Of a DNA stretch of 64,000 bases, positions 6,978 to 60,892 are shown in pieces. The notes under the pieces are model-generated. The model was not told the DNA's origin. It saw only the letters and a list, made by a program, of their open reading frames with translations, and ran no database searches. The stretch comes from Rhabdophis nuchalis (taxonomy: Eukaryota; Chordata; Lepidosauria; Squamata; Natricidae): the NCBI GenBank assembly GCA_039707465.1, contig CM077644.1, positions 147,072,962 to 147,136,961 on the forward strand. Reading direction: 5' to 3'. Position 1 is the first letter of the stretch. Each line of letters starts with the position of its first letter. The position numbers were made by a program, and so were the translations under genes.

Positions 6978-7001
6978 ATATATATATATATATATATATA
7001 T

Positions 7002-7056: not shown

Positions 7057-7129
7057 AATACATTGAAAACATTGAAAACAATTATCTATATATATAATTG
7101 TTTCCACAACACCCTGTTAATATATATAA

Positions 7130-25519: not shown

Positions 25520-25532
25520 TTAAGCTGAGAAT
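25404..25532 (+). promoter_or_regulatory. Self-priming pair: R start and primer-binding site
   Basis: ATTCTCAGCTT in the LTR (25404-25414) is the exact complement of AAGCTGAGAAT just inside the element (25522-25532), 2 nt after the LTR. No TGG-type tRNA primer site follows the LTR. In Tf1 and its vertebrate sushi relatives, the first 11 nt of the RNA fold back on the priming site and are cut to prime reverse transcription. The length and position here match that scheme. Confidence 0.8.
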
Positions 25533-25557
25533 CACAAAAAACCAAAAACCTGCCCTG

Positions 25558-28500
25558 ATGTCGGACCCTTCACAAGAGGAGCCTCCGTTGGTAGAGGTCC
25601 TGCCTGAAAACATTTTGGGAGCTGAAGCATCGCATCCTCCTGTTCAAACTGAAGGGATCAGGTCAGTGATGGAAGGTTTGGCTGGCCTAGATCTAAATCT
25701 GGCAGCCGAAGAATCAGTCAAACCTAAACGTTGGTCTGAAGGGGTAGGAATGAGTGGGGTAAACGTCTCCAGACGACGACTTTCCCCAAAGAAAGTCATT
25801 CCGGAGCTCCAAAGAGAGGAGAATGAATTAAGGGAGATGGCTCAGGACTTACTCCGTCAGGCAGATGAGAAGAAATTAGCCCTGGAAAAAATCTGGGGGA
25901 GGGAGGCGGAACGCCAACAGGCAAGAGGTTCACAGGCAGCTCCGGGGGGGCGAAGCAGGGTTTCAACACCCTCCCCCCCTCCTCAAGCCGGCAGGGAATT
26001 ACGGAGAGAGACAGCTTCTGCCAGGCAAAGCAGGAGAGCAACGCCCTCCCCCCCCCCTCAGGCTGGAAGGGAAGCCAACCCCATTAACCCCCGCCGACTT
26101 GCTAAACTGCCTCCTTTGGGTGTGAAATATAATGGAAGTGCCGACAAACTGGCGTTTTTTCTAATTCACGTCGATAATTTCATGCAGTTTTACGCAGCTG
26201 ATATGGATGATGAAATCAAAATCAGAATTGTATCTATGACCTTAGAAGATCAAGCTTCTGATTGGTTGGTTTCTTTGCATAATTGCCATTCACCAGCATT
26301 GCGTGACTTTGATCGCTTTATGAATGCTCTTAGAAGGCGTTTTGAAGACCCCCGTGTGCAGAGGAAAGCAAAAATGAAACTAAAATGTTTGCAACAGGGG
26401 GACATGTCTATTCAGGCTTACACTCAGATTTTTCAACAGCTATCAGTGTTTATGACTGGTTATTCTGAACAAGCCCTGATGGATATTTATGTTGATGGGC
26501 TGAATAAGGATATTTATCAAACATGTGTGAACAGATTTCGTCCAGAGACTTTGAATGACTGGATAGATTTAGCTTCGGATGTTGAATTGGATCAAGCACA
26601 TTTACAAGATCCAGGCCGCTTGGAGAGAAAAACACAGGAAGATAGCCCCAAATCTCACCCACCTGCGAGGGAGAAAAGCATTCAAAAGGGGGAGGGGAGA
26701 CCAACCCAACCTCGTTCAGGCAGCTGTTATCGCTGTGGCAAGGAGGGGCACTGGGCAGACAAATGCCGGTCAAAACCAATTCCACGCCCACCTTCTTCTT
26801 CGGACCGGAAACAGCCCAAGACACCAACTGTGCGCGCCAGGCCGGCTATGAGTGGAATGGAGCCCATCAATCTTCCTGTTGACCAGCCCTCCCCGGAACC
26901 CGATGATTGGGAAGCGTCTTCAGACTCTTCTGACGACAACTTGGTGAGTCATCACTCCGGGCCCCTTTATATTAATTTAATGCTTTTAGCTCCATCTACT
27001 GGGCGTACATGCAATGTGCAGGCTCTCATTGATTCTGGGTGTTCGAAAACTCTCATAAGCCAAGACATAGTGGATAAAATGGGTTTCCACCTTAAACCCT
27101 TAAAAACTCCCATAGCCTTTTGCCAAATGGATGGTTCTGTAGCTGGGGGTACCCCAGCATCTTTTATCACCGAACCAATTCATGTCTCTATAGGCACGGG
27201 CCATACTGAGACCATCAACTTTATTGTAACTGCCATTGCCGATAATGATGTAATTTTGGGGGTCAATTGGCTTCGCAAATGGAATCCTATTATAAACTGG
27301 AAGGAAAGTTGGGTACGCATACCTTTAACCCTACCAGAACACACCTCTCTTCCATCAGAAGTTGATCAACCACCCCCCCATGTTGAATCTGCTGCACCTT
27401 TATTGGGTTTCCCATCACCCGAATCCATACCAGGCGAGGAGAAAATTCCCAAAGAATATTGGGACCTAAAGGATGCTTTCAGTGAAAGATCTTGTGATTC
27501 CCTTCCTCCTCATAGGGCTACTGACTGTTCAATTGATTTTCTTCCTGGGGTTCAATTACCCAAACCTCGTATATACTCCATGACCCCGCGGGAGATGGAG
27601 GAATTACGTAAATTCATCGATAAAAACCTTCAAAGAGGTTTCATTGAACCGGCTAGGCCCCGTGTGGCCGCACCGGTTATGTTTAGAGAAAAAAAAGATG
27701 GTACTCTACGATTGATACAGGACTATTCATATCTCAACACCATTTGTGAACACAATATTTACCCCCTTCCGCTCATGAAAGACATGCTGGCTCACCTGGC
27801 TACCGGTAAGATTTTTACAAAATTGGACTTACGTGAAGCCTATTACAGAGTCAGGATTAAAGAGGGGGACGAATGGAAAACAGCTTTTAACTGTCCACTC
27901 GGGTGTTTCCAATTCAAAGTCCTACCTTTCGGTCTTCAAGGTGCTCCTTCGGTGTTCATGCAATTAATAAACGAGGTTCTCCACGAGCACCTTTACAAGG
28001 GAGTAATTGTTTACATTGATGACATAGTCGTCTACTCGCAAACACATGACGAGCACATTAAACTGGTGCGCTCCGTGTTAAACAAGTTGCGTTCCGCTGA
28101 ACTTTATGCCAAACTTTCTAAGTGTGAGTTTCACCAGGACAGAATTGACTATTTAGGTTACCGCATCTCCTCTGAGGGAATAGAAATGGATCCTGCTAAA
28201 GTCAAGGCGGTAACGGAGTGGGCCCCTCCCCGTACCCGTAAACAATTGCAAAGTTTTTTGGGATTTGCAAATTTTTACCGCCAATTTATTCCGTCATTCG
28301 CTGATATTGCCTTGCCCATTACGAACCTTCTGAAAACAAAAGGAGAAGGCAAACCTCGTCCAGGAACCCCTCTCAAATGGACGATGGAGTGTCAAGCCGC
28401 TTTCGAAAAGCTAAAAAGGTTGTTTGCGGCTGAGCCTGTTCTCAAACACCCCGATGTGAATTCCCCATTTGTAATTCAGGCAGATGCAAGTGATGTCGCG

Positions 28501-30354
28501 GTGGGAGCAGTCCTTTTACAGCTCAATCAGCAAGGCCAATTACAACCATGCGCTTACACCTCTCGGAAACTCACTGCGTCCGAACGTGGTTGGGCGATTT
28601 GGGAAAAAGAAGCTTTTGCTGTTCGGTGGGCTCTCATGACTTGGCGTCATTTTCTTGAGGGTGCCCCGCATCCTTTCGAGGTCTGGACAGACCATAAAAA
28701 CTTGGAAGCTCTTACCTCCTCTCGGAAATTGTCCCCAAGGCAACTTCGTTGGGCTCACTTTTTCCATCGTTTCAATTTCCACCTCAAATACATCCCTGGG
28801 GGCAAAAACTTCATGGCTGATGCGCTTTCCAGATTGCCTCAGTATGATGTCTCTAAACTCACCGTTGTACAACCCATCATGCCACTCACTTTACCTGCTT
28901 CTCCGGTGTCTACTTTAACCCAAACTACTGTTCAAACTACTCCACCTGCTGACCTGATTGCTCGTATAAAGGAGGAATTACTTACTGATGATTGGTATTC
29001 GACTCACTCAGGTGATTGTACTACCAGAGATGATCTTCCCTGGATTGGCTCGAAGATCTATGTTCCTGCTACTTTGCGTCCTTTTGTCTTGCAACGCGCA
29101 CACGACTCACGTTTGGCTGGCCATTTCGGTTTCGTTAAGACTATTCATCTTGTCAAGAGACAATTCTGGTGGCCTTCAATGAAGAAAGATGTCGAATCGT
29201 ATATTGCCAGTTGCCCTGTATGTGCGGTTTCAAAACGGGCGCCGGGCAAGCCTCAGGGTCTTCTCCAGTCTGTAGCTGCGCCGGAAAGGCCTTGGAAGGA
29301 AATTTCAATGGACTTTATAGTTGATCTTCCACCCAGTCAGGGTTATACCGTTATCTGGGTAGTTACCGATCTCTTTTCTAAACAAGTTCATTTTGTCCCC
29401 TGTACTAAAATTCCTTCTTCTAAAACTCTAGCCCGCCTGTTCGTTTCTCATATCTATCGTTCTCATGGCGTCCCGCAACGCATCATCTCCGATAGAGGAA
29501 CACAATTTACTTCCCATTTTTGGAAGGAGTTTTTGAGACTGATTGGCTCCGCCCAGAGCTTAAGCTCCGCCTACCACCCTCAGACGAATGGATCTTGTGA
29601 AAGGGTTAATTCCGTTCTCGAACAATACTTACGTTGTTTTATTAATTTTCAACAAGATGATTGGGCTGATCTTCTCGTACATGCCGAGGTGGCGTATAAT
29701 AACTCTGTTCACTCTAGTACGAATATGACCCCCTTTAAAATCATCTACGGACAGGACTTTGTACCCATTCCCGAACTGCCTCACGACTCGACGACAGTTC
29801 CCTCTTTAGCTGACTGGTCCTCTAGACTGTCCTCTGTTTGGCCGGTTCTCCGAAAAACTTTGAATGATGCCCATGATTCGCACAAGTTGTACGCTGACAG
29901 GAAACGGGCAGTACCTCCATCCTACAAAGTTGGTGATCAGGTTTATGTGTCTACCAAAAATTTGGATAGTCCCCAAAAATGCAAGAAGCTGGGTCCTAAA
30001 TTTGTTGGTCCTTTCACGATCACAAAAATTATCAGCTCTGTGTCGGTCCGTTTGGATCTCCCCAAGACCTACCGACGACTGTACCCTGTATTCCATGTTC
30101 ATTTACTGAAGCCTGCTCGTACCTCCCATCTTCGCAAAAGATTACCTGCTGCTCCTACACCTACCATGGTTGATGGTCATCAGCATTATGAGGTCCGGGA
30201 CATTTTGGACTCCAGAATCCGCAGAAATAAAACACAGTTCCTGGTCATGTGGAAAGATTTTCCCCCTTCTCATAACGAATGGGTGGATAAAGAGCATCTC
30301 AAAGCTCCTAAACTGGTACGCCAGTTTTATGCCAAATATCCACACAAACCCTGA
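25558..30354 (+). CDS. gag-pol: Gag-Pol polyprotein with C-terminal chromodomain
   Basis: 1,598 residues from the ATG at 25558; the frame is open back to a GTG at 25480 inside the LTR, which I do not accept as the start. Domains in order: Gag with basic/Pro-rich linkers (residues 1-385); CCHC knuckle CYRCGKEGHWADKC (390-403); aspartic protease with DSG (492-494); RT with LDL (D757) and YIDD (819-822); RNase H (QADAS, D976); integrase zinc-binding HHCC domain (from H1182); catalytic D1252, D1312, E1348 (DD35E spacing); chromodomain (about 1544-1598, Y, W and acidic residues present). All catalytic residues are intact. Gag and Pol are in one frame, as in Tf1, so Gag excess must come from processing or turnover rather than frameshifting. 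The chromodomain likely guides integration to marked chromatin. Confidence 0.96.
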   Translation: MSDPSQEEPPLVEVLPENILGAEASHPPVQTEGIRSVMEGLAGLDLNLAAEESVKPKRWSEGVGMSGVNVSRRRLSPKKVIPELQREENELREMAQDLLRQADEKKLALEKIWGREAERQQARGSQAAPGGRSRVSTPSPPPQAGRELRRETASARQSRRATPSPPPQAGREANPINPRRLAKLPPLGVKYNGSADKLAFFLIHVDNFMQFYAADMDDEIKIRIVSMTLEDQASDWLVSLHNCHSPALRDFDRFMNALRRRFEDPRVQRKAKMKLKCLQQGDMSIQAYTQIFQQLSVFMTGYSEQALMDIYVDGLNKDIYQTCVNRFRPETLNDWIDLASDVELDQAHLQDPGRLERKTQEDSPKSHPPAREKSIQKGEGRPTQPRSGSCYRCGKEGHWADKCRSKPIPRPPSSSDRKQPKTPTVRARPAMSGMEPINLPVDQPSPEPDDWEASSDSSDDNLVSHHSGPLYINLMLLAPSTGRTCNVQALIDSGCSKTLISQDIVDKMGFHLKPLKTPIAFCQMDGSVAGGTPASFITEPIHVSIGTGHTETINFIVTAIADNDVILGVNWLRKWNPIINWKESWVRIPLTLPEHTSLPSEVDQPPPHVESAAPLLGFPSPESIPGEEKIPKEYWDLKDAFSERSCDSLPPHRATDCSIDFLPGVQLPKPRIYSMTPREMEELRKFIDKNLQRGFIEPARPRVAAPVMFREKKDGTLRLIQDYSYLNTICEHNIYPLPLMKDMLAHLATGKIFTKLDLREAYYRVRIKEGDEWKTAFNCPLGCFQFKVLPFGLQGAPSVFMQLINEVLHEHLYKGVIVYIDDIVVYSQTHDEHIKLVRSVLNKLRSAELYAKLSKCEFHQDRIDYLGYRISSEGIEMDPAKVKAVTEWAPPRTRKQLQSFLGFANFYRQFIPSFADIALPITNLLKTKGEGKPRPGTPLKWTMECQAAFEKLKRLFAAEPVLKHPDVNSPFVIQADASDVAVGAVLLQLNQQGQLQPCAYTSRKLTASERGWAIWEKEAFAVRWALMTWRHFLEGAPHPFEVWTDHKNLEALTSSRKLSPRQLRWAHFFHRFNFHLKYIPGGKNFMADALSRLPQYDVSKLTVVQPIMPLTLPASPVSTLTQTTVQTTPPADLIARIKEELLTDDWYSTHSGDCTTRDDLPWIGSKIYVPATLRPFVLQRAHDSRLAGHFGFVKTIHLVKRQFWWPSMKKDVESYIASCPVCAVSKRAPGKPQGLLQSVAAPERPWKEISMDFIVDLPPSQGYTVIWVVTDLFSKQVHFVPCTKIPSSKTLARLFVSHIYRSHGVPQRIISDRGTQFTSHFWKEFLRLIGSAQSLSSAYHPQTNGSCERVNSVLEQYLRCFINFQQDDWADLLVHAEVAYNNSVHSSTNMTPFKIIYGQDFVPIPELPHDSTTVPSLADWSSRLSSVWPVLRKTLNDAHDSHKLYADRKRAVPPSYKVGDQVYVSTKNLDSPQKCKKLGPKFVGPFTITKIISSVSVRLDLPKTYRRLYPVFHVHLLKPARTSHLRKRLPAAPTPTMVDGHQHYEVRDILDSRIRRNKTQFLVMWKDFPPSHNEWVDKEHLKAPKLVRQFYAKYPHKP

Positions 30355-39305: not shown

Positions 39306-39348
39306 TGTGTGTGTTAGGTTTTGAGCTGATAAATAAATAAACAAGGGA

Positions 39349-39395
39349 GACTAGGATAGATCTATTTCGAGCTATTTAGCTCTCATCAGCTAGCC
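39349..39395 (-). ncRNA. Hammerhead ribozyme, minimal type I, intact
   Basis: Read on the minus strand: stem I GGCTAG/CTAGTC (one G-U), core CTGATGA, stem II GAGCT-AAAT-AGCTC, GAAA, stem III ATAG-AT-CTAT, cleavage after AUC. All conserved bases are present. Confidence 0.85.
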
Positions 39396-39570
39396 ATACC
39401 CTTACTGGGATTCGAACCAGGGAAGTATTACATGTGAGGCAGTTGTAATTGCCACAAGCATATACTTATTCCCCTGTCTCTCAGCTGATCAGGATAGAAC
39501 CAGTGGTCTAGTGGCAATTACAACTGCCTCACATATAATACTTCCCTGGTTCGAATCCCAGTAAGGGTGT

Positions 39571-39617
39571 GGCTAGCTGATGAGAGCTAAATAGCTGGAA
39601 ATAGATCTATCCTAGTC
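39571..39617 (+). ncRNA. Hammerhead ribozyme, stem II mismatch
   Basis: Same as its partner at 39349-39395 except that stem II reads GAGCT-AAAT-AGCTG, so the base pair next to the core is G-G. The catalytic core bases are intact. Activity is probably reduced. Confidence 0.8.
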
Positions 39618-39788
39618 TCCCCTGTTTGTTTATTTATCAGCTCAAAATCTAAAACACATGTAAACAAAAGACACAACGAAACTAATAGCTTTCTGTCTGC
39701 ATGGTCTCTTGTGATGAGCCAAAAGACAGAAAAGGAAAGCAGTATGCTTCCTCCATTAATTGGGGCTTACCAGGGTGTTGTGACACAA

Positions 39789-39790
<2 letters not shown>

Positions 39791-39871
<81 letters not shown>
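39791..39871. repeat. (AT)n(GT)n at array border
   Basis: About 17 AT units followed by about 22 GT units, ending at the first base of the tandem array. Confidence 0.97.
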
Positions 39872-39874
<3 letters not shown>

Positions 39875-39912
39875 AATTTCTTTAAGGGATGATTAGTAAT
39901 AATTAATTAAGA

Positions 39913-39959
39913 GACCAGGATGGATCCATTTCGGGCTCCTTAGCCCTCGTCAGCTGGCC
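39913..39959 (-). ncRNA. Hammerhead ribozyme of array (first of 22)
   Basis: Minus strand: stem I GGCCAG/CTGGTC, core CTGACGA, stem II GGGCT-AAGG-AGCCC, GAAA, stem III ATGG-AT-CCAT, cleavage after AUC. The motif recurs every 346 bp up to about 47180-47226. A few units have CTGATGA, also a valid core. One unit (near 45455) has a G-U pair in stem III. I found no array copy with a broken conserved core base. Confidence 0.9.
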
Positions 39960-39972
39960 ATACTTCCCTACA

Positions 39973-40030
39973 GGGATTTGAACTGGTGCTCTCCAGCATT
40001 CGAAGCAGGCTTCTCTATGCCTTGAGCTAA
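39973..40030 (-). promoter_or_regulatory. tRNA-like Pol III boxes of array unit (first unit)
   Basis: On the minus strand the A-box-like TTAGCTCAAGGC (40030-40019) is followed by the B-box-like AGTTCAAATCCC (39984-39973), just upstream of the hammerhead. The spacing is tRNA-like. By analogy with tRNA SINEs these boxes may drive RNA polymerase III. The other copies (7167-7223; 39513-39571; 52018-52080) keep a better B box, GGTTCGAATCC. Confidence 0.7.
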
Positions 40031-43000
40031 CCAGTTTCCCTGATTACATCATCCTTTCTACAGGACTTTATTGATGAAGTGGATATATTGTTACAGCTTC
40101 CTGTTAGGCCTATTTAAGGGAGGAGACAAACTTGTCATCCTTCTCTGTCCTTCGACTCAACCTAGAGACCATCCAGACAGAGACCTATTAAATTGCTGCT
40201 GTCTTTTTAGATATGTGTTAAATTTCTTTAAGGGATGATTAGTAATAATTAATTAAGAGACCAGGATGGATCCATTTCGGGCTCCTTAGCCCTCGTCAGC
40301 TGGCCATACTTCCCTACAGGGATTTGAACTGGTGCTCTCCAGCATTCGAAGCAGGCTTCTCTATGCCTTGAGCTAACCAGTTTCCCTGATTACATCATCC
40401 TTTCTACAGGACTTTATTGATGAAGTGGATATATTGTTACAGCTTCCTGTTAGGCCTATTTAAGGGAGGAGACAAACTTGTCATCCTTCTCTGTCCTTCG
40501 ACTCAACCTAGAGACCATCCAGACAGAGACCTATTAAATTGCTGCTGTCTTTTTAGATATGTGTTAAATTTCTTTAAGGGATGATTAGTAATAATTAATT
40601 AAGAGACCAGGATGGATCCATTTCGGGCTCCTTAGCCCTCGTCAGCTGGCCATACTTCCCTACAGGGATTTGAACTGGTGCTCTCCAGCATTCGAAGCAG
40701 GCTTCTCTATGCCTTGAGCTAACCAGTTTCCCTGATTACATCATCCTTTCTACAGGACTTTATTGATGAAGTGGATATATTGTTACAGCTTCCTGTTAGG
40801 CCTATTTAAGGGAGGAGACAAACTTGTCATCCTTCTCTGTCCTTCGACTCAACCTAGAGACCATCCAGACAGAGACCTATTAAATTGCTGCTGTCTTTTT
40901 AGATATGTGTTAAATTTCTTTAAGGGATGATTAGTAATAATTAATTAAGAGACCAGGATGGATCCATTTCGGGCTCCTTAGCCCTCATCAGCTGGCCATA
41001 CTTCCCTACAGGGATTTGAACTGGTGCTCTCCAGCATTCGAAGCAGGCTTCTCTATGCCTTGAGCTAACCAGTTTCCCTGATTACATCATCCTTTCTACA
41101 GGACTTTATTGATGAAGTGGATATATTGTTACAGCTTCCTGTTAGGCCTATTTAAGGGAGGAGACAAACTTGTCATCCTTCTCTGTCCTTCGACTCAACC
41201 TAGAGACCATCCAGACAGAGACCTATTAAATTGCTGCTGTCTTTTTAGATATGTGTTAAATTTCTTTAAGGGATGATTAGTAATAATTAATTAAGAGACC
41301 AGGATGGATCCATTTCGGGCTCCTTAGCCCTCGTCAGCTGGCCATACTTCCCTACAGGGATTTGAACTGGTGCTCTCCAGCATTCGAAGCAGGCTTCTCT
41401 ATGCCTTGAGCTAACCAGTTTCCCTGATTACATCATCCTTTCTACAGGACTTTATTGATGAAGTGGATATATTGTTACAGCTTCCTGTTAGGCCTATTTA
41501 AGGGAGGAGACAAACTTGTCATCCTTCTCTGTCCTTCGACTCAACCTAGAGACCATCCAGACAGAGACCTATTAAATTGCTGCTGTCTTTTTAGATATGT
41601 GTTAAATTTCTTTAAGGGATGATTAGTAATAATTAATTAAGAGACCAGGATGGATCCATTTCGGGCTCCTTAGCCCTCGTCAGCTGGCCATACTTCCCTA
41701 CAGGGATTTGAACTGGTGCTCTCCAGCATTCGAAGCAGGCTTCTCTATGCCTTGAGCTAACCAGTTTCCCTGATTACATCATCCTTTCTACAGGACTTTA
41801 TTGATGAAGTGGATATATTGTTACAGCTTCCTGTTAGGCCTATTTAAGGGAGGAGACAAACTTGTCATCCTTCTCTGTCCTTCGACTCAACCTAGAGACC
41901 ATCCAGACAGAGACCTATTAAATTGCTGCTGTCTTTTTAGATATGTGTTAAATTTCTTTAAGGGATGATTAGTAATAATTAATTAAGAGACCAGGATGGA
42001 TCCATTTCGGGCTCCTTAGCCCTCATCAGCTGGCCATACTTCCCTACAGGGATTTGAACTGGTGCTCTCCAGCATTCGAAGCAGGCTTCTCTATGCCTTG
42101 AGCTAACCAGTTTCCCTGATTACATCATCCTTTCTACAGGACTTTATTGATGAAGTGGATATATTGTTACAGCTTCCTGTTAGGCCTATTTAAGCGAGGA
42201 GACAAACTTGTCATCCTTCTCTGTCCTTCGACTCAACCTAGAGACCATCCAGACAGAGACCTATTAAATTGCTGCTGTCTTTTTAGATATGTGTTAAATT
42301 TCTTTAAGGGATGATTAGTAATAATTAATTAAGAGACCAGGATGGATCCATTTCGGGCTCCTTAGCCCTCGTCAGCTGGCCATACTTCCCTACAGGGATT
42401 TGAACTGGTGCTCTCCAGCATTCAAAGCAGGCTTCCCTATGCCTTGAGCTAACCAGTTTCCCTGATTACATCATCCTTTCTACAGGACTTTATTGATGAA
42501 GTGGATATATTGTTACAGCTTCCTGTTAGGCCTATTTAAGGGAGGAGACAAACTTGTTATCCTTCTCTGTCCTTCGACTCAACCTAGAGACCATCCAGAC
42601 AGAGACCTATTAAATTGCTGCTGTCTTTTTAGATATGTGTTAAATTTCTTTAAGGGATGATTAGTAATAATTAATTAAGAGACCAGGATGGATCCATTTC
42701 GGGCTCCTTAGCCCTCGTCAGCTGGCCATACTTCCCTACAGGGATTTGAACTGGTGCTCTCCAGCATTCGAAGCAGGCTTCTCTATGCCTTGAGCTAACC
42801 AGTTTCCCTGATTACATCATCCTTTCTACAGGACTTTATTGATGAAGTGGATATATTGTTACAGCTTCCTGTTAGGCCTATTTAAGGGAGGAGACAAACT
42901 TGTCATCCTTCACTGTCCTTCGACTCAACCTAGAGACCATCCAGACAGAGACCTATTAAATTGCTGCTGTCTTTTTAGATATGTGTTAAATTTCTTTAAG

Positions 43001-46000
43001 GGATGATTAGTAATAATTAATTAAGAGACCAGGATGGATCCATTTCGGGCTCCTTAGCCCTCGTCAGCTGGCCATACTTCCCTACAGGGATTTGAACTGG
43101 TGCTCTCCAGCATTCGAAGCAGGCTTCTTTATGCCTTGAGCTAACCAGTTTCCCTGATTACATCATCCTTTCTACAGGACTTTATTGATGAAGTGGATAT
43201 ATTGTTACAGCTTCCTGTTAGGCCTATTTAAGGGAGGAGACAAACTTGTCATCCTTCTCTGTCCTTCGACTCAACCTAGAGACCATCCAGACAGAGACCT
43301 ATTAAATTGCTGCTGTCTTTTTAGATATGTGTTAAATTTCTTTAAGGGATGATTAGTAATAATTAATTAAGAGACCAGGATGGATCCATTTCGGGCTCCT
43401 TAGCCCTCGTCAGCTGGCCATACTTCCCTACAGGGATTTGAACTGGTGCTCTCCAGCATTCGAAGCAGGCTTCCCTATGCCTTGAGCTAACCAGTTTCCC
43501 TGATTACATCATCCTTTCTACAGGACTTTATTGATGAAGTGGATATATTGTTACAGCTTCCTGTTAGGCCTATTTAAGGGAGGAGACAAACTTGTCATCC
43601 TTCTCTGTCCTTCGACTCAACCTAGAGACCATCCAGACAGAGACCTATTAAATTGCTGCTGTCTTTTTAGATATGTGTTAAATTTCTTTAAGGGATGATT
43701 AGTAATAATTAATTAAGAGACCAGGATGGATCCATTTCGGGCTCCTTAGCCCTCATCAGCTGGCCATACTTCCCTACAGGGATTTGAACTGGTGCTCTCC
43801 AGCATTCGAAGCAGGCTTCTCTATGCCTTGAGCTAACCAGTTTCCCTGATTACATCATCCTTTCTACAGGACTTTATTGATGAAGTGGATATATTGTTAC
43901 AGCTTCCTGTTAGGCCTATTTAAGGGAGGAGACAAACTTGTCATCCTTCTCTGTCCTTCGACTCAACCTAGAGACCATCCAGACAGAGACCTATTAAATT
44001 GCTGCTGTCTTTTTAGATATGTGTTAAATTTCTTTAAGGGATGATTAGTAATAATTAATTAAGAGACCAGGATGGATCCATTTCGGGCTCCTTAGCCCTC
44101 GTCAGCTGGCCATACTTCCCTACAGGGATTTGAACTGGTGCTCTCCAGCATTCGAAGCAGGCTTCTCTATGCCTTGAGCTAACCAGTTTCCCTGATTACA
44201 TCATCCTTTCTACAGGACTTTATTGATGAAGTGGATATATTGTTACAGCTTCCTGTTAGGCCTATTTAAGGGAGGAGACAAACTTGTCATCCTTCTCTGT
44301 CCTTCGACTCAACCTAGAGACCATCCAGACAGAGACCTATTAAATTGCTGCTGTCTTTTTAGATATGTGTTAAATTTCTTTAAGGGATGATTAGTAATAA
44401 TTAATTAAGAGACCAGGATGGATCCATTTCGGGCTCCTTAGCCCTCGTCAGCTGGCCATACTTCCCTACAGGGATTTGAACTGGTGCTCTCCAGCATTCG
44501 AAGCAGGCTTCTCTATGCCTTGAGCTAACCAGTTTCCCTGATTACATCATCCTTTCTACAGGACTTTATTGATGAAGTGGATATATTGTTACAGCTTCCT
44601 GTTAGGCCTATTTAAGGGAGGAGACAAACTTGTCATCCTTCTCTGTCCTTGACTCAACCTAGAGACCATCCAGACAGAGACCTATTAAATTGCTGCTGTC
44701 TTTTTAGATATGTGTTAAATTTCTTTAAGGGATGATTAGTAATAATTAATTAAGAGACCAGGATGGATCCATTTCGGGCTCCTTAGCCCTCGTCAGCTGG
44801 CCATACTTCCCTACAGGGATTTGAACTGGTGCTCTCCAGCATTCGAAGCAGGCTTCTCTATGCCTTGAGCTAACCAGTTTCCCTGATTACATCATCCTTT
44901 CTACAGGACTTTATTGATGAAGTGGATATATTGTTACAGCTTCCTGTTAGGCCTATTTAAGGGAGGAGACAAACTTGTTATCCTTCTCTGTCCTTCGACT
45001 CAACCTAGAGACCATCCAGACAGAGACCTATTAAATTGCTGCTGTCTTTTTAGATATGTGTTAAATTTCTTTAAGGGATGATTAGTAATAATTAATTAAG
45101 AGACCAGGATGGATCCATTTCGGGCTCCTTAGCCCTCGTCAGCTGGCCATACTTCCCTACAGGGATTTGAACTGGTGCTCTCCAGCATTCGAAGCAGGCT
45201 TCTCTATGCCTTGAGCTAACCAGTTTCCCTGATTACATCATCCTTTCTACAGGACTTTATTGATGAAGTGGATATATTGTTACAGCTTCCTGTTAGGCCT
45301 ATTTAAGGGAGGAGACAAACTTGTCATCCTTCTCTGTCCTTCGACTCAACCTAGAGACCATCCAGACAGAGACCTATTAAATTGCTGCTGTCTTTTTAGA
45401 TATGTGTTAAATTTCTTTAAGGGATGATTAGTAATAATTAATTAAGAGACCAGGATAGATCCATTTCGGGCTCCTTAGCCCTCGTCAGCTGGCCATACTT
45501 CCCTACAGGGATTTGAACTGGTGCTCTCCAGCATTCGAAGCAGGCTTCCCTATGCCTTGAGCTAACCAGTTTCCCTGATTACATCATCCTTTCTACAGGA
45601 CTTTATTGATGAAGTGGATATATTGTTACAGCTTCCTGTTAGGCCTATTTAAGGGAGGAGACAAACTTGTCATCCTTCTCTGTCCTTCGACTCAACCTAG
45701 AGACCATCCAGACAGAGACCTATTAAATTGCTGCTGTCTTTTTAGATATGTGTTAAATTTCTTTAAGGGATGATTAGTAATAATTAATTAAGAGACCAGG
45801 ATGGATCCATTTCGGGCTCCTTAGCCCTCGTCAGCTGGCCATACTTCCCTACAGGGATTTGAACTGGTGCTCTCCAGCATTCGAAGCAGGCTTCTCTATG
45901 CCTTGAGCTAACCAGTTTCCCTGATTACATCATCCTTTCTACAGGACTTTATTGATGAAGTGGATATATTGTTACAGCTTCCTGTTAGGCCTATTTAAGG

Positions 46001-47304
46001 GAGGAGACAAACTTGTCATCCTTCTCTGTCCTTCGACTCAACCTAGAGACCATCCAGACAGAGACCTATTAAATTGCTGCTGTCTTTTTAGATATGTGTT
46101 AAATTTCTTTAAGGGATGATTAGTAATAATTAATTAAGAGACCAGGATGGATCCATTTCGGGCTCCTTAGCCCTCGTCAGCTGGCCATACTTCCCTACAG
46201 GGATTTGAACTGGTGCTCTCCAGCATTCGAAGCAGGCTTCTCTATGCCTTGAGCTAACCAGTTTCCCTGATTACATCATCCTTTCTACAGGACTTTATTG
46301 ATGAAGTGGATATATTGTTACAGCTTCCTGTTAGGCCTATTTAAGGGAGGAGACAAACTTGTCATCCTTCTCTGTCCTTCGACTCAACCTAGAGACCATC
46401 CAGACAGAGACCTATTAAATTGCTGCTGTCTTTTTAGATATGTGTTAAATTTCTTTAAGGGATGATTAGTAATAATTAATTAAGAGACCAGGATGGATCC
46501 ATTTCGGGCTCCTTAGCCCTCGTCAGCTGGCCATACTTCCCTACAGGGATTTGAACTGGTGCTCTCCAGCATTCGAAGCAGGCTTCTCTATGCCTTGAGC
46601 TAACCAGTTTCCCTGATTACATCATCCTTTCTACAGGACTTTATTGATGAAGTGGATATATTGTTACAGCTTCCTGTTAGGCCTATTTAAGGGAGGAGAC
46701 AAACTTGTCATCCTTCTCTGTCCTTCGACTCAACCTAGAGACCATCCAGACAGAGACCTATTAAATTGCTGCTGTCTTTTTAGATATGTGTTAAATTTCT
46801 TTAAGGGATGATTAGTAATAATTAATTAAGAGACCAGGATGGATCCATTTCGGGCTCCTTAGCCCTCGTCAGCTGGCCATACTTTCCTACAGGGATTTGA
46901 ACTGGTGCTCTCCAGCATTCGAAGCAGGCTTCTCTATGCCTTGAGCTAACCAGTTTCCCTGATTACATCATCCTTTCTACAGGACTTTATTGATGAAGTG
47001 GATATATTGTTACAGCTTCCTGTTAGGCCTATTTAAGGGAGGAGACAAACTTGTTATCCTTCTCTGTCCTTCGACTCAACCTAGAGACCATCCAGACAGA
47101 GACCTATTAAATTGCTGCTGTCTTTTTAGATATGTGTTAAATTTCTTTAAGGGATGATTAGTAATAATTAATTAAGAGACCAGGATGGATCCATTTCGGG
47201 CTCCTTAGCCCTCGTCAGCTGGCCATACTTCCCTACAGGGATTTGAACTGGTGCTCTCCAGCATTCGAAGCAGGCTTCTCTATGCCTTGAGCTAACCAGT
47301 TTCC

Positions 47305-47395
47305 GAGCCCGAAATGGATCCATCCTGGTCTCTTAATTAATTATTACTAATCATCCCTTAAAGAAATTTAACACATATCTAAAAAGACAGCAGCA

Positions 47396-47399
<4 letters not shown>
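47305..47399 (+). repeat. Inverted partial array unit
   Basis: The last unit stops inside the tRNA-like part (CCAGTTTCC) and joins an inverted 95-bp piece running from stem II (GAGCCCGAAATGG) through the AT-rich segment to CAGCAGCAATTTA. It holds only the 3' half of a hammerhead. The array thus ends in a fold-back, as does the isolated pair at 6251-6977. Confidence 0.9.

Positions 47400-47471
<72 letters not shown>
47397..47471. repeat. (TA)n tract
   Basis: About 37 TA units between the array and a PLE terminal fragment. Confidence 0.97.
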
Positions 47472-47475
<4 letters not shown>

Positions 47476-47541: not shown

Positions 47542-47840
47542 TTTCGTATATTTTCACGGGTGTAGGTATGCTGGCATAGCTGGCTTCGGGGATTTTCCTG
47601 TGTATAAGGCATAGAAAAGTTGTTGCAACGTTTCGACAAGATCTCACTTGTCATCATCAGGCAGGCTTGTGTCTGTGAGTGTGACTGCGGAGGCATCGCC
47701 CCTCTTTAAATCTTGGTGGGGGGGGTGGAGTGCTGACTATTGTTGTGAGTGGGTTGATTGGCTGTGCAGTTGCATCGCGACTGGTAGATTGATGCTGATT
47801 GGTCTCATTTGTATGTTTCTCCTTGTTTTGAATTTCAACG
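47541..47840 (-). mobile_element. Inverted PLE 3' end before PLE 2
   Basis: This is the reverse complement of the PLE 2 3' region (51662-51930), including about the last 60 codons, the stop, the CTGATGAT-hairpin-GAAACG motif and the terminal words. It joins the 5' edge of PLE 2 head to head at about 47840. Inverted partial copies next to the 5' end are known from Penelope insertions. Confidence 0.85.
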
Positions 47841-48782
47841 GCTTCACCCAAGTGCCTATAAAAGAAGCCTTGACAGCCATCCAGAACAAATACAACCCCC
47901 CCCAAGCACATCCTGGATCTGACCAACCACTGTCTAACCAACACATACTTCATTCACAATAACCAAAGATACAAACAGATAGAAGGAGCACCCATGGGAT
48001 CACCCCTCTCACCGGTCATCGCAAACTTATATATGGAACACTTTGAAACCAACGCCCTAGACAAATCTGAACACAAACCCAAACTCTGGCTCAGATATGT
48101 AGATGACACTTTTGTAATTTGGCCACATGGGAAAGAAAAACTGGACAACTTCCTCACACACCTCAACTCCCTACACCCCAAAATACAATTCACCATGGAA
48201 ATAGAAGCCAACAACCAACTCCCTTTTCTAGACGTCCTAATCTACAAAAAACCTAATGGCTCCCTAGGACACACCATCTACCGGAAAAAAACACACACTA
48301 ACCGCTACCTAAATGCACAATCCCATCACCACCCTGCACAGATAAACTCTGTAGCCAAAACCCTCATACACAGAACCAAACGCCTAGCTGACAAAGACCA
48401 TCTGAAAACCGAAATACACTTCCTCACAAATACATTAATATCCAACGGATTCCGAAGAAAAACAATCACCAAACTAATCCAACAAGAAACACCCCCCAGG
48501 AACCAAGACAAAGAACAGGAAAATGGCATTGCCCTCATCCCATACATTAAAGGTACCACAGACAAAATCAGCAAAATTCTCCACAAGCACAACATCAAGA
48601 CAGCCTTCAACACCGACCAAAAAATAACCAATATCCTAAGGAACCCAAAAGACAAGATCCAGCTAGAAAACCAAGGAGTCTACAAAATTCCATGTAAAAG
48701 CTGCCCTGCCACTTACATAGGACCAGGGGTGGGTTTCAAAATTTTTGGAACAGGTTCTGTGGGTGTGGCCTGCTTTGTGGGA

Positions 48783-48932
48783 GTGGCTTGCCGGCCATGT
48801 GACCGGGTGGGAGTGGCTTGCCGGCCATGTGACCGGGTGGGAGTGGCTTGCCGGCCATGTGACCGGGTGGGAGTGGCTTGTCGGCCATGTGACCGGGTGG
48901 GAGTGGCTTGCCGGCCATGTGACCGGGTGGGA
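48783..48932 (+). repeat. 30-bp minisatellite, 5 copies
   Basis: Units of GTGGCTTGCCGGCCATGTGA plus CCGGGTGGGA. A single-copy version of the same words (GTGGCTTGG, CATGTGAC, GGGTGGGC) is found in the related elements at 951 and 60893, so the expansion occurred inside this element. The unit length keeps a reading frame open (VGVACRPCDR repeats) without coding meaning. Confidence 0.95.
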
Positions 48933-48939
48933 ATGTTAG

Positions 48940-49870
48940 CAGCTGCTGGAATTATGTTTGTACAACAGTGGAAAAACAGATATGAAAATGAATAAATACT
49001 ACAATGTGCAGGAATAAATAAAGTGACAATTAAAATCAAGAAGGCTTTGAATATTTTTTCACATGGGATTTGTTTTAGCAATTGCTAAGTAACAGAAACA
49101 GAAAATAGAAATCCAAAAGTATGAAAGACAACACCAATTATGTAAGGAAAGGTCACTAAAATGCACCAACCTGGCAGCCCATAGAAAAGCAGCCACTTTA
49201 TAAACCTGGTCTGAACACTTAAAAGCAACATTTGCAAAAAGGAATAACATTTCATGTAGTAAATATATTTTATAAACAATTAAAAAATAGAAATTCCCTA
49301 AAATAATGTAAAAAAAAGATATTCTATAAGGTTGATACAGGTTGTTGCCAACATCCTAGGTATCAATTACATCCTCAATTACCATTCTTAAACTTGTAAG
49401 TGAAGTTGAGCTCCACTGCTTATGATGTGTGTGGCACATCCCTATAGTTTACTTGGCAGCATTACAGAAGTGGTTGTCACTGTTTTATTTTATTTTTTTA
49501 ATTGCCTAGCCACTTATAGGCCTGTTCTTTTGTAGTGACTTCCCAATCAAGTACTAATCAAATGCAACTTACATTTTTTCACATCAGCCAAGGGCCACTG
49601 ATTTCCAGATAAAAAGTGATTTCTTATGCATACATATACCTTTAACAGTCTATTTTTAAGAAAATATATGTAGAAAAATACTCTGAAAATTTACCCTGAA
49701 AAAGGTCAACATAGTTTCCACTGAATAAATATTTTATGATTTTATAATTAATTGTGTTATCCCAAGCAACAATATTTTATTGGGCAAAGAAATATAAAAT
49801 AACATCAGAAAGGTGTTAGATTATGTATATAAAGTCATAATAAACTATAAGCCACCCAGAGTCACTGCAT
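48940..49870. other. AT-rich interior of the hAT-like element
   Basis: Unassigned AT-rich sequence. It might be captured genomic DNA or decayed element body. No transposase motifs were found in six frames of the region. Confidence 0.45.
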
Positions 49871-50649: not shown

Positions 50650-51250
50650 CTCCCACTTGGAACCTTTCTAAGCCAGTCCGGTGCAGAGGAAGGAAAACTA
50701 CAATTCCCAGCAGCCTCCGGGAAACACTGTTGCTAAGAGACCGGAGGCGGGGAGTCCAACTGTCCGCAGCCGGATTTTTCTCGGCATCGCAGCGCAGGGA
50801 GCGCCGCGCGGGGCTGCTGGAGGGCACTGGCTCCAGAGGTGGGGGGGGCGGCTTCTCCTGCAAGAGGCGGGGGGAGCTGTGGCTGGCATGCACCCAAAGT
50901 AGGGAGCAGTTCGCGTGCATTTGGGGGGGGATCGTGGTCCTTCTGGGCGGTGGGAGCTGGGAGCGCCATTCCCTGGGCTTGGAAGGATGGAGGGGGGCTA
51001 TTGAGGGAGGGGGCTCAGTTGCTGGTGACACGTGGATTTTGCATTGCCCCCCACTCCACCCGGGACTGGAATCGAGATGCCTGGCATTGCAATTTCTTAT
51101 TCGTAACAACCCTGCGAGGTAAACTCGCTAAACTCGCTGGTCAGTGGTGGGAAGCAGTTGCGAAGAGGCACGGGCCTCTCTGCAACTTCTTCCCACCACT
51201 GGCCAGCGAGTTTAGCGCTGGCTAGGCGGTGGTGGGGAGGGGCGTGGACA
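50650..51250. promoter_or_regulatory. GC-rich, CpG-island-like block inside the hAT-like element
   Basis: CpG-rich sequence with promoter-like words: ACTACAATTCCCAGCAGCC (50698-50716) resembles the ZNF143/SBF site and GTTGCTAAGAGAC (50729-50741) resembles an RFX half-site. It might be a captured host promoter fragment. The first word also resembles the CTTCAACTCCCAG core of the palindromic MITE, so chance or repeat origin is possible. A 44-bp-arm hairpin (51126-51169 / 51174-51217) follows. Confidence 0.4.
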
Positions 51251-51849
51251 TGCGCGGGGGGGGCATACTTACTTCCGGGTCCACCGGTCCAAAGGGATCG
51301 CTCAGGATTGGGAAATTTGACGAAAAGCCTCGCGGGAGCCCGTGCGAACCCTTAGAAACCCACCCCTGCATAGGACAAACCAACAGAAGGATTAGTGCAC
51401 GTATTGCTGAACATAAAAATGCTTTAAAAAATCATCTTAATACCTCATCTCTCTATCAACATTTCAAAACTACAGGACGTGACATTGACTTTCAAGGAAC
51501 TAAAATGATCTCCAAGGCGGAACAGCTCAACAGGAGAATAATCAGAGAAGCCATTGAAATAGAGAAACAATCTAGCAGCATGAACAAACGTGATGATACC
51601 TCCCGCTTACCAGATATCTGGAAGCCAGCATTGACCAGCAGACGAGCCCCACCCTCCAGCCAAGCCGTTGAAATTCAAAACAAGGAGAAACATACAAATG
51701 AAACCAATCAGCATCAATCTACCAGTCATGATGCAACTGCACAGCCAATCAACCCACTCACAACAATAGTCAGCACTCCACCACCCCCACCAAGATTTAA
51801 AGAGGGGCGATGCCTCCGCAGTCACACTCACAGACACAAGCCTGCCTGA

Positions 51850-51931
51850 TGATGACAAGTGAGATCTTGTCGAAACGTTGCAACAACTTTTCTATGCCTT
51901 ATACACGGGGAAATCCCCGAAGCCAGCTATT
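51850..51931 (+). mobile_element. PLE 2 3' end
   Basis: The stop overlaps CTGATGAT, then a hairpin GACAAG/CTTGTC with loop TGAGAT, then GAAACGTTGC, TCTATGCCTTATACAC and CCCCGAAGCCAGC. The copy ends near 51931 and the next ribozyme repeat begins at once. Confidence 0.8.
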
Positions 51932-51934
51932 AGT

Positions 51935-52215
51935 TTTTATAAGCTGATCAATAAATTTAAATTTGAGAGACCAAGATAGATCTATTTCGAGCTTATTAGC
52001 TCTCATCAGTTGGTCACACCCCACTGGGATTCGAACCGGGGCTGTAATGAATCCAAGGCAGAAGCCTAGCACTCCAGCCTAATCGGTTCTACCCTGTTTC
52101 ATCAGCTAATCCAGGAGTATTTAGTATAGATAATTGTTTCCACAACTTCCTGTAAGGGCCCCAATTAAGGGAGGAGACATGCTGTTTCCCTCTCTTTCCC
52201 TCTATTTCCCTCTGT
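51935..52215 (-). mobile_element. Ribozyme repeat, intermediate type
   Basis: The minus strand has a tRNA-like B box (GGTTCGAATCCCAGTGGGG), an intact hammerhead (51969-52015), and a tail AAATTTATTGATCAGC. Its far end shares CTTCCTGTAAGGGCC and TTAAGGGAGGAGACA with the 346-bp array unit, so it links type B to the array family. It abuts the PLE 2 3' end. Confidence 0.85.
51969..52015 (-). ncRNA. Hammerhead ribozyme, minimal type I, intact
   Basis: Minus strand: stem I GACCAA/TTGGTC (6 perfect pairs), core CTGATGA, stem II GAGCT-AATA-AGCTC, GAAA, stem III ATAG-AT-CTAT, cleavage after AUC. Stem I differs from the other copies by compensating changes. Confidence 0.85.
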
Positions 52216-52438
52216 TCGAAACAGTCCTATGCTAAAATCCAAATTAAAATCCCCAATTATTAATCCCCAATATTAAAATGTGATGTGTTTTTTTTTGTTA
52301 TTTCCATCTTTTGTACTACAAATGTTTTCGATCCAGGATACAAAACTTGTAAAACGAAGAAACCAATGAACGTGTAATTTGAACTTATTTTTCAGTGAGT
52401 ATATGGATTCATGCTTATAAATTACAAGTATATATAAT
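52216..52438. other. Unassigned spacer
   Basis: AT-rich sequence with no recognised feature. Confidence 0.4.
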
Positions 52439-56088: not shown

Positions 56089-57592
56089 TCACAGTACAAT
56101 ACAGTACAATACAATAGCAGAGTTGGAAGGGACCTTGTAGGTCTTCTAGTGGGCAGGAGCCTTATACCATTTCAGACAAATGGCTATCTAACATCTTTTT
56201 AAAGACTTCCAGGGTTGGGGCATTCACAACTTCTGGAGGCAAGCTGTTCCAGAGGTTAATTGTTCTAACTGTCAGGAAATTTCTCCTTAGTTCTAAGTTG
56301 CTTCTCTTCTTGATTAGTTTCCACCCATTGCTTCTTGTCCTGCCCCCAGGTGCCTTGGAGAATAGTTTGGCTCTCTCTTCTTTGTGGCACTCTCTGAGAT
56401 ATCGGAACACTGCTATCATGTCTCCCCTGGTCCTTCTCTTCATCAAACTAGACATACCCAGCTCCTGCAACCGTTCTTCATATGTTTTAGTCTCCAGTTC
56501 CCTAATCATCTTTGTTGCTCTTCTCTGCACTCTTTCCAGAGTCTCCACGTCTTTTCTACATCGTGGCGACCAAAACTGTATGCAGTATTCCAAGTGTGGC
56601 CTTACCAAGGCACTATACAGTGGCATTAACACTTCACGTGATCTAGATTCTATCCCTCTGTTTATGCAGCCTAGAACTGTGTTGGCTTTTTTGGCAGCTG
56701 CTGCACACTGCTGACTCATATTTAAATGGTTGTCCACTAAGATTCCTAGTTCCCTCTCACAGTTGCTACTATTGAGCAAGGTACCACCTATACTGTACTT
56801 GTGCATTTTGTTTTTCTTGCCTAAATGTAGAACCTTACTTTTTTCACAATTGAATTTCATTTTATTAGATAGTGCCCAATGTTCAAGTTTGTCTAGATCC
56901 TTCTGTATCTTAAGCCTATCTTCTGGAGTGTTGGCTATTCCTGCCAGCTTGGTGTCGTCTGCAAATTTGATGAGTTCCCCATTTATCCCCTCATCCAAAT
57001 CGTTGATGAAGATGTTAAAGAGTACTGGGCCTAAAACAGAGCCTTGGGGGACTCCACTGCATACTTCCTTCCATGTAGATGCAGTTCCATTGAGGACTAC
57101 ACGTTGAGTGCGGTTGGTCAGCCAGTTGCGAATCAATTTGGTGGTGGTGCTGTCTAACCCACAATTTTCTACTTTATCTAATAGTAGGTTATGGTCTACT
57201 TTATCAAATGCCTTACTGAAGTCCAAGTAAATTATATCGACAGCATTCCTCTGGTCCACTGATTTTGTCACTTTGTCAAAGAATGCAATTAGATTAGTCT
57301 GGCATGATCTGTTTTTGACAAACCCATGTTGGCTTTTGGCTATTACTTTGTTTGCTTCTAGGTGTTCACTTATTTGTTGTTTAATTATCTTTTCCAGAAT
57401 CTTTCCTGGTATTGAGGTCAGGCTGATGGGTCTATAGTTTCCTGGATCTGTTTTTTTTCCTTTTTTGAAGATGGGAACCACATCAGCTCTTTTCCAGTCT
57501 TCTGGCAATTCCCCGGTGCTCCAGGATCTCTGAAAGATATAGTTCAGTGGTTCTGAGATCTCGTCTGCCAGTTCCTTCAGAAGAGACCAGGT
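56089..57592 (-). mobile_element. CR1 LINE, 5'-truncated
   Basis: Minus strand. The 5' break is near 57592, inside ORF2 upstream of the RT domain. The 3' UTR (56161-56114) is short, with CTACAAGGTCCCTTCCAACT and CTGCTATTGTATTGTACTG, ending in short ATTGTACTGT repeats as CR1 tails do. It is inserted in the Helitron. Confidence 0.85.
56162..57592 (-). pseudogene. CR1 ORF2 reverse transcriptase, truncated but open
   Basis: The open frame runs 57679-56162 (505 codons); CR1-derived sequence begins at about LLKELADEISEPL. RT motifs in order: WKRADVVPIFKKG, NYRPISLTS, KSQHGFVKNRSC, YLDFSKAFDKVDH, GVPQGSVLGPVLFNIFINDL and FADDTKL (catalytic, 56965-56954). The C-terminal block LWNSLPPEVV and MLDSHL follows. 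The endonuclease domain is lost by truncation. No internal stop in about 475 codons suggests a fairly recent insertion. Confidence 0.92.
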
Positions 57593-57593
57593 C

Positions 57594-57638
57594 CTCCCTG
57601 CCTGACAGCTATTTATACACGAGCTGTCAGGCAGGGAG
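57594..57638. repeat. 17-bp-arm hairpin at CR1 5' junction
   Basis: CTCCCTGCCTGACAGCT and its exact reverse complement are separated by an 11-base loop (57611-57621). The left arm coincides with the point where CR1 homology stops. It may be part of the Helitron body or a product of the CR1 insertion. Confidence 0.8.
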
Positions 57639-57738
57639 CTAGCTGTCATTCGTAGAGTCGAGGACTTGTGGCCGATCATAAGTCAAGGACTTTGGGACTG
57701 GTCGCAAGTCGAGGACTTCAACAGATTCCAACATTAGA

Positions 57739-60884: not shown

Positions 60885-60892
60885 CTGCAGAT

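Follow-up and report, generated by a model that had tools for sequence, protein, structure and literature searches.

In salamanders, tandem repeats of 330-350 bp that carry type I hammerhead ribozymes yield circular RNAs (PMC7229834). Such retrozymes seem to be promoterless, and a 2020 review describes the metazoan ones as being without a motif that points to a mobilising retrotransposon (PMC7761336). Penelope elements have been put forward as candidates for moving them, since the two share hammerheads and tandem copies and occur together (PMC7229834). Here we analysed 64,000 nt of the genome of the snake Rhabdophis nuchalis (GCA_039707465.1, contig CM077644.1, positions 147,072,962 to 147,136,961 of the forward strand; the window), in which a hammerhead ribozyme (HHR) element with a 346-bp unit forms a tandem array close to Penelope-like elements. 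We think it probable that this element is a retrozyme with an RNA polymerase III (pol III) type head, and that a reverse transcriptase (RT) of the Penelope type inserts its circular or multimeric RNA, with priming at the two ends of a (TA)n tract that has been broken. The retrozyme-like organisation is already known from salamanders and schistosomes, and what seems to be new here is the apparent mode of insertion.

SmAlpha (W36.2) of Schistosoma mansoni carries pol III boxes. It resembles a short interspersed element (SINE), measures 335 bp, contains a type I hammerhead and occurs in tandem and dispersed as the HHR element does, in a very distant host; the accessible part of its description does not mention a Penelope-type insertion anatomy (PMC8490949). 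As described, salamander retrozymes and newt satellite 2 (about 330-353 bp) are similar to the HHR element in unit length, in being tandem non-coding repeats, in a type I hammerhead with short helix III and a palindromic tetraloop, and in having co-resident Penelope elements (PMC7229834). Unlike them, the HHR element has a tRNA-like head and a Penelope-type insertion signature and resides in an amniote; the terms SINE and RNA polymerase III do not occur in the main text of that paper. The sSat3/Squam3 and the amphibian PolIII/TAN (about 360 nt) repeats are likewise described as tandem repeats with a tRNA-like part, but the snake sSat3 unit is 67 nt (PMC10702118), whereas the HHR unit of 346 bp is not the 67-nt box B-to-body Squam3 and is set apart from it by unit length. 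Neither ribozyme nor Penelope is mentioned in the main text of PMC10702118.

Penelope-like elements (Poseidon of Anolis, bdelloid and Drosophila Penelope) are similar to the HHR element in their head-to-head inverted arms, in two 3' ends of which one may bear a tail, and in AT-rich simple targets and a hammerhead motif (PMC11167929; PMC3846280). They differ in being autonomous, with an RT and a GIY-YIG endonuclease, whereas the HHR element is non-coding. In Anolis, the Penelope protein cuts as well as extends each strand of AT-rich DNA. It initiates at two internal positions of the RNA, and the stretch between these forms the 'tail' (PMC11167929). Bdelloid and other Penelopes have head-to-head inverted pseudo-long terminal repeats (pLTRs), a tail that is optional on one of them and a preference for AT-rich simple targets (PMC3846280). 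A sequence-only reading of the window, made without database searches, had called a SINE/retrozyme hybrid unusual, which is too strong given the precedents of the hammerhead-bearing, SINE-like SmAlpha (PMC8490949) and the tRNA-like newt PolIII/TAN tandem repeat of about 360 nt (PMC10702118). A literature search, outside of which most subscription journals lay, found no squamate retrozyme, no retrozyme tRNA promoter and no Penelope-mobilised SINE.

The tandem array and its unit

The array was delimited with TRF, which gave a period of 346, 21.5 copies and 99% matches over 39868-47304, bearing out the near-identical 346-bp tandem units of the sequence-only reading. This is the longest copy mapped, and it may have grown by recombination as well. 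Unit positions are numbered in RNA sense with u1 set at AACACATATC, and the array runs from u181 (47304) to u6 (39868). The features of the array and its borders are as follows.

39868-47304, minus strand: tandem array of 21.5 units of 346 bp (TRF and unit mapping; RNA sense is minus)
40258-40316, minus strand: example type I hammerhead of one unit (core CTGA starts at 40299, predicted cut between 40265 and 40264), one of 22 such in the array
40320-40375, minus strand: example tRNA-like head of one unit, with the A box from 40375 (u191) and the B box from 40330 (u236), read downwards
47305-47400, plus strand: inverted 96-nt arm (u282 to u31) that abuts the array head-to-head with no intervening base and continues into (TA)37
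39791-39872, no strand: (AT)n(TG)n tract adjoining the array on its RNA-3' side
47399-47472, no strand: (TA)37 tract adjoining the inverted arm on its RNA-3' side

All 22 hammerhead cores of the array were on the minus strand, which is the sense strand, a correction to the earlier description; the earlier right border also has to be moved, as 47305-47399 is the inverted arm (u282 to u31) entering (TA)37 and not array. The cores were 346 nt apart in 20 of 21 intervals and 345 nt apart in the other. The claim that they are intact held for all 22, each of which kept CUGANGA...GAAA, and the recurrent C5T variant falls on the free N7 position. On the minus strand the tRNA-like part of the unit, with its A box at u191 and B box at u236, is followed by the type I hammerhead, which has its core at u267 and is predicted to be cut after u301, and what remains of the unit is rich in AT. 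There were 12 distinct sequences among the 21 full array units, and the variants G164A, A286G and C5T recurred among non-adjacent units, implying some inter-unit exchange or recurrent mutation. No frame of at least 120 aa was found inside the array, and none for an RT or a GIY-YIG endonuclease, as had been read from the letters for protein frames in general; the HHR element is thus non-autonomous, in contrast to an autonomous Penelope. A non-coding tandem unit of 346 bp is within the range of about 170-400 nt of metazoan (non-LTR) retrozymes, which are arranged as dimers to multimers.

The hammerhead ribozyme and the tRNA-like head

The hammerhead motif (up to 3 mismatches) was found 28 times in the window, 22 times in the array and six times dispersed (6431-, 6897+, 7242+, 39347-, 39577+ and 51967-), compared to 0 in 100 shuffles. 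The dispersed copies are listed here.

6252-6613, minus strand: copy from u127 to u146 (one turn plus 20 nt) with an S2 end (see below) in (TA)n; hammerhead G8 mutated (CTGACAA)
6615-6976, plus strand: copy from u330 through a full turn to S1, ending in (TA)n; head-to-head partner of 6252-6613
7183-7312, plus strand: copy of a divergent subfamily, with a hammerhead at 7242 and a tRNA-like head of its own in which both the A box and the B box are perfect
39310-39480, minus strand: divergent subfamily copy with core at 39389, inverted partner of 39490-39785; A box cut short, 5' boundary approximate
39490-39785, plus strand: divergent subfamily copy with core at 39577 (stem II closing pair broken), ending in (AT)n; 5' boundary approximate
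51937-52310, minus strand: divergent subfamily copy with core at 52009, its 3' side directly abutting a Penelope 3' region; boundaries approximate

Covariation was assessed in nine window hammerheads using a 17-pair structure made up of an extended stem Ib, stem I, stem II and a 3-bp stem III. Pairs were formed in 99.3% of the 153 cells, and when the partner was slid by 1-3 columns pairing fell to 32.7-50.3%. Both sides had changed in six pairs as compared to a shuffled mean of 3.1, with one of 500 shuffles as high, and compensatory changes were present in stems Ib, I, II and III. We extended this to 38 genomic loci picked from a unit-search listing (167 matches, 57 candidates, 40 of them scored) and to 12 control loci (the first 12 from 20 random places on 11 of 348 contigs). 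A structure scan found 149 hammerheads in the 38 loci and 0 in both the shuffled loci and the controls. Further paired changes were evident in stem II across these 149, and stem III with its loop was palindromic in 146 of them; in the axolotl, where the tetraloop of the hammerheads is palindromic, dimers work better (PMC7229834). The genome-wide copy count that the sequence-only reading had proposed gave 12,279 exact matches to a 34-place motif in the 1.92-Gb assembly and 0 for the reversed pattern, and a search of viral contigs with the motif gave 0 matches. Covariation and genome-wide motif counts together establish, at the level of sequence, a real ribozyme family.

No Rfam hammerhead model reached its gathering score anywhere in the 64-kb window. 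The best sub-threshold matches were HH9 with 33.2 bits (cut-off 52) at 7228-7296 and Hammerhead_1 with 29.8 bits (cut-off 34) at 39571-39617, and the array units scored 25.2-28.0 bits with HH9. HH9 represents the intronic hammerheads of amniotes, isolated in conserved introns in contrast to the mobile repeat here, which have been suggested to derive from a mobile hammerhead element (PMC3088659). The miRNA and similar Rfam hits obtained at E-value thresholds were mostly on dinucleotide tracts and were discarded. The sequence-only reading had taken a missing Rfam hit as grounds for giving up the ribozyme; formally that is the outcome, but it is overridden by the covariation and the genome-wide counts. 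As in retrozymes, the hammerhead is of type I with an intact core and conserved helices, though below the Rfam cut-off. The absence of a match above cut-off and the damaged core or stem II in two of the six dispersed window copies would both fit a hammerhead that is an inactive passenger, with the tRNA head and the priming sites alone mattering. We consider this unlikely, as it is opposed by the compensatory changes in all four stems, by the further paired changes in stem II of the 149 copies and by an enrichment of 5' ends just beyond the predicted cut, which is described below.

The A and B boxes lie directly 5' of the ribozyme in the unit, as the earlier reading had it, although those of the array are imperfect, with 3 mismatches in total (6 of 2000 shuffles were as good). 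Two dispersed copies (7242 and 39577) have perfect A and B boxes, which were matched by 0 of 2000 shuffles each. We surveyed 72 distinct upstream sequences from the 38 loci and the window. A B box with no more than one mismatch was present in 57 of them, compared to 0.5% of shuffles, and the best B box started 28-32 nt before the core in 62. The A box was less discriminating, with 46 of 72 at no more than one mismatch and about 16% of shuffles. ARAGORN at default called no tRNA in the window; at an 80% threshold it called five of seven heads in 226-nt extracts and two of seven trimmed 91-nt heads, calls that carry little weight because 7 to 27 of 500 shuffles of the 91-nt heads were also called. 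Together these data support a tRNA-like ancestry of the head well, judged by its boxes, and the head is a putative pol III promoter. The word head here means upstream of the ribozyme, since the HHR element has no fixed 5' end.

Heads vary by subfamily, with CGA, TGG, GAT, CAC and others as the anticodon-like triplet, which is flanked by TGCYY-NNN-A in 43 of the 72 distinct heads.

Insertion ends and co-resident Penelope-like elements

Insertion anatomy was mapped using segments of at least 95% identity, which gave 75 segments in 37 of the 38 loci; one of 76 segments was cut by a locus end and left out, and locus L039 (87% identity) held no segment at this threshold. The RNA-3' ends were concentrated at two sites, with 33 at S1 (u346-16), 32 at S2 (u140-150) and 10 elsewhere. 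The corresponding proposed priming sites are near u1-12 for S1 and at u146 for S2, about 140 nt apart. Nine of the 75 5' ends fell inside the S1 and S2 bins. Over 20 bins the entropy was 1.86 for 3' ends and 4.00 for 5' ends, as compared to a uniform expectation of 4.12, and dinucleotide tracts flanked 45 of the 3' ends versus 8 of the 5' ends. Copy length ranged from 0.06 to 5.4 turns of the unit. The pol III A and B boxes are those of a tRNA SINE, but the fixed 5' end at the tRNA is not found, as the 5' ends of the 75 segments are scattered round the unit.

Head-to-head pairs were seen 26 times, in 22 loci, in AT-rich simple DNA as for Penelope insertions. Eight pairs with an end outside S1 and S2 were dropped, and in 15 of the 18 classifiable pairs one arm ended at S1 and the other at S2 (p 0.004; 13 of 16 with one pair per locus, p 0.011). 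The window pair 6252-6613(-)/6615-6976(+) follows the fetched loci, with S2 and S1 ends and arms of one turn plus about 20 nt each. These data modify the satellite label given by the sequence-only reading, which holds for the tandem array in the window; elsewhere the family consists of insertions of 0.06-5.4 turns with preferred RNA-3' ends. SINE-derived satellites are known in squamates (PMC10702118), and the recurrence of G164A, A286G and C5T in non-adjacent array units would suit a satellite that arises and is kept uniform as DNA, by unequal exchange or rolling-circle DNA, with no retrotransposition. Such a process would not yield 65 of 75 ends at two sites, mainly-3' dinucleotide flanks or 26 inverted pairs, and we regard it as very improbable, while exchange between units may have lengthened the window array.

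Copies in loci L016 and L030 show an internal jump from about u25-31 to u122-130, with loss of about u32-u121, possibly a switch between the two priming regions.

Penelope-like pieces in the window are as follows.

4635-6229, plus strand: Penelope-like element P1, an RT-to-endonuclease frame with a minimal hammerhead-like motif at 6110 and a 3' end at 6229 entering (TA)n
7002-7054, minus strand: Penelope 3' end opposite the copy 6615-6976, with (TA)n between them
47542-48995, both strands: Penelope P2, a minus-strand 3' arm (47542-47844) and a plus-strand RT frame (47874-48995, RVT_1)
51226-51930, plus strand: Penelope 3' portion with an endonuclease-like YIGQTNRRI (no match in Pfam) and a minimal hammerhead-like motif at 51846

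Penelope pieces adjoin each of the three HHR-element clusters (6252-7312, 39310-47400 and 51937-52310), and all six window TA runs of at least 14 bp are at or in Penelope or HHR elements. Minimal hammerhead-like motifs were present in the window Penelope pieces at 6110(+), 51846(+) and 47660(-), and Penelope 51662-51930 is 98% identical to 47576-47844. When the HHR unit was compared with the window by BLAST, dinucleotide runs were the only matches to Penelope. The 38 loci held 58 matches to the 140-nt Penelope 3' regions, distributed over 23 loci, versus 0 of 12 random loci (Fisher p 0.00015). Of 89 TA runs of at least 16 bp, 80 had a match to Penelope or the HHR element no more than 30 bp away, and the controls had no such run; CA followed by TATATA was seen at 104 of 178 entries into TA runs.

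The ends of the Penelope copies were then compared with those of the HHR element. After one of the 58 matches was dropped for lying at a locus end (n=57), the main 3'-end sites were 111 (8 ends) and 139-140 (13 ends) for P1 and 114 (6 ends) and 142 (13 ends) for P2, together holding 40 of the 57 ends with the rest scattered. All 10 Penelope head-to-head pairs consisted of one tail-less arm (108-116) and one tailed arm (at least 130), nine of the tailed arms ending at 139-142 and one at 131 (L038, 11 nt short of the usual site). Two RNA 3'-end sites, one per inverted arm, are therefore common to the HHR element (15 of 18 pairs) and Penelope (10 of 10), and because both carry the same kind of scars, one machinery for both is the simplest reading. 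In one locus (L038:1336-1783) a Penelope 3' region is fused to the HHR element on one strand with an overlap of 2 nt, possibly a template switch by its sequence. The Penelope/element junction of L011 was not counted as a second chimera, as a short TA stretch lies between, and fusion-scan rows such as 'P1 -1589..-1544' were ignored as dinucleotide matches.

The Penelope family looks recently active, as the 87 best-scoring of 10,029 candidate copies were 94-100% identical to the window frame, 70 of these 87 had no stop in the match, and open frames reached 1011 aa. Several of the best copies were tandem or had inverted neighbours. The closest named matches of the window frame, among the best 120 of 520, were from squamates: Ahaetulla prasina at 88% (57% of query), Vipera latastei at 85% (31% of query) and Podarcis at 66% (78% of query).

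Short tandem repeats lie at 5877-6039 in the 3' part of the P1 frame. A 30-bp tandem repeat of 5.2 copies (48777-48932) is read through by the P2 frame, and the stretch around 48721-48818 has further matches at 942-1044 and 60890-60986.

An ordinary tRNA SINE copied by a long interspersed element (LINE) of the CR1, L1 or Bov-B type, with the (TA)n as tails or chance targets, would account for the tRNA-like boxes (57 of 72 B boxes with no more than one mismatch), and a CR1-like LINE frame is present in the window. To our knowledge, dual 3' ends with one per arm, head-to-head joints and circular permutation are not LINE or SINE scars, and the Penelope copies in the same loci do show such scars; judged by these scars, copying by a LINE is improbable in our estimate. 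The CR1-like RT frame has 506 aa (56162-57682, minus strand), with its highest identity, among 120 listed of 7676, to the snake Erythrolamprus (74%). A Ty3/gypsy-type open frame of 1624 aa (25480-30354, plus strand) has gag, RT, RNase H, integrase and chromodomain matches.

RNA template and proposed mechanism

The predicted cleavage site was spanned by 60 of the 75 segments, and within 3 nt of it there was one 5' end and no 3' end. A linear cleaved monomer as the sole template is thus excluded, because copying would stop at u302. The remaining templates would be circles and multimers, perhaps both together. Unit variants within insertions were used to compare these. In L031 the variants G317A, del55-58 and del169 were common to all four full units of both arms, and in L022 G218A was present in all five full units of both arms. 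In L020 ins54AAA was found in all seven units, which span two neighbouring inverted pairs, and L015 and L026 had variants common to three of three and two of two units. Over 11 loci, units differed on average by 2.0 within loci and 5.1 between loci; the opposite-arm mean is inflated by an old plus unit of L016. Variants common to all units of an insertion are as one circle per insertion would give.

The 5' ends provided a possible trace of the cut. In u302-346, just 3' of the predicted cut, there were 21 of the 75 5' ends as compared to 9.8 expected, an excess noticed after the fact, and a location-free scan gave P 0.001 for a 45-nt window and P 0.015 for a 15-nt window (12 ends in u305-319). 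This excess fits run-off of the cDNA at hammerhead-made 5' ends with the loss of a few bases. As 8 of the 12 copies starting in u302-321 were longer than one turn, the run-off templates would be cut oligomers and not monomers.

Penelope-made insertions from linear multimeric RNA, uncleaved or rarely cut, with circles playing no part, are a possible alternative that we hold to be the less likely one. The passage of copies through the cut site is also explained by it, and cut linear oligomers fit the excess of 5' ends beyond the cut. In vitro, the Anolis Penelope uses unprocessed RNA and hammerhead cleavage is not needed for insertion (PMC11167929), and in L033 two unit types are mixed in one copy, against a single circle there. 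The variants shared across both arms of L031 and L022 are a one-circle pattern, however, and together with the low differences within loci and copies of up to 5.4 turns they argue against linear multimers alone.

The reading we prefer remains the pol III-headed retrozyme inserted by Penelope-type enzymes. We infer transcription, cleavage, circularity and enzyme use from sequence patterns, and the mechanism would run as follows. The family would be a non-coding retroelement of about 346 nt, in which an extended type I hammerhead comes after a tRNA-like head of the pol III type. Its tandem copies would be transcribed, the transcripts cut by their hammerheads, probably as dimers through the palindromic stem III, and the pieces circularised at least in part. 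By analogy with the salamander case and from the 5'-end trace, the hammerhead's step would be to supply unit-length RNA and circles. The RT/endonuclease of the co-resident Penelope-like elements would cut (TA)n/(CA)n DNA on both strands, and each new DNA 3' end would prime on one of the two internal RNA sites, S1 or S2. The two cDNA arms would run for a variable distance, some for less than a tenth of a turn and others for several, and be joined head-to-head, with multi-turn copying giving rise to tandem units. We lean towards this being the first SINE-like element partnered by Penelope and not by a LINE, in which one self-cleaving, tRNA-promoted circle, primed at two sites by the opposite ends of a single broken (TA)n, would write both head-to-head arms.

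Several observations weigh against this reading, besides the Rfam result, the in vitro use of uncleaved RNA and the mixed units of L033. Co-location with Penelope could reflect a shared target and not a shared enzyme, because the 12 controls lack a long TA run. No sequence beyond CA at the ends is common to S1/S2 and the Penelope end sites, and the spacing differs, with about 140 nt between S1 and S2 and 28 nt between the two Penelope sites. The Anolis start sites are alike on both strands in vitro (PMC11167929), and for inverted Penelope repeats self-priming on antisense RNA has been favoured by the authors of PMC3846280 over two-ended priming. Five tail-to-tail adjacencies were also counted. 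The 5' ends are non-uniform (KS p 0.015), and their excess past the cut implies some linear templates and not circles alone. L016 holds an older plus unit, and one L020 unit deviates at position 169. In the hammerhead alignment the further pair types numbered 9, not above shuffles (11.2), and the effective depth of the covariation is lower since array variants that are almost identical make up three of the nine rows. In the predicted ensemble of the circular monomer, stem I formed in only about a quarter and stem II in less than half. The absence of a TTTT pol III terminator was rejected as a signal, as 572 of 1000 shuffles also lacked TTTT.

The core of the sequence-only reading, a retrozyme-like, tRNA-headed, non-coding and mobile element, is supported by the dispersed family, the covarying hammerheads and the insertions copied through the cleavage site, which call for a circular or multimeric template. 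That reading had overlooked the link to Penelope. Tandem retrozymes are thereby extended to a snake. The family offers a promoter-like head and a quantitative insertion signature in common with Penelope, which can be tested wherever both occur. Penelope, whose transposition steps are poorly known, gains a natural candidate substrate of 346 nt with about 12,000 genomic hammerhead matches. If the proposed mechanism is true, the enzyme partner of animal retrozymes would be identified, in an amniote.

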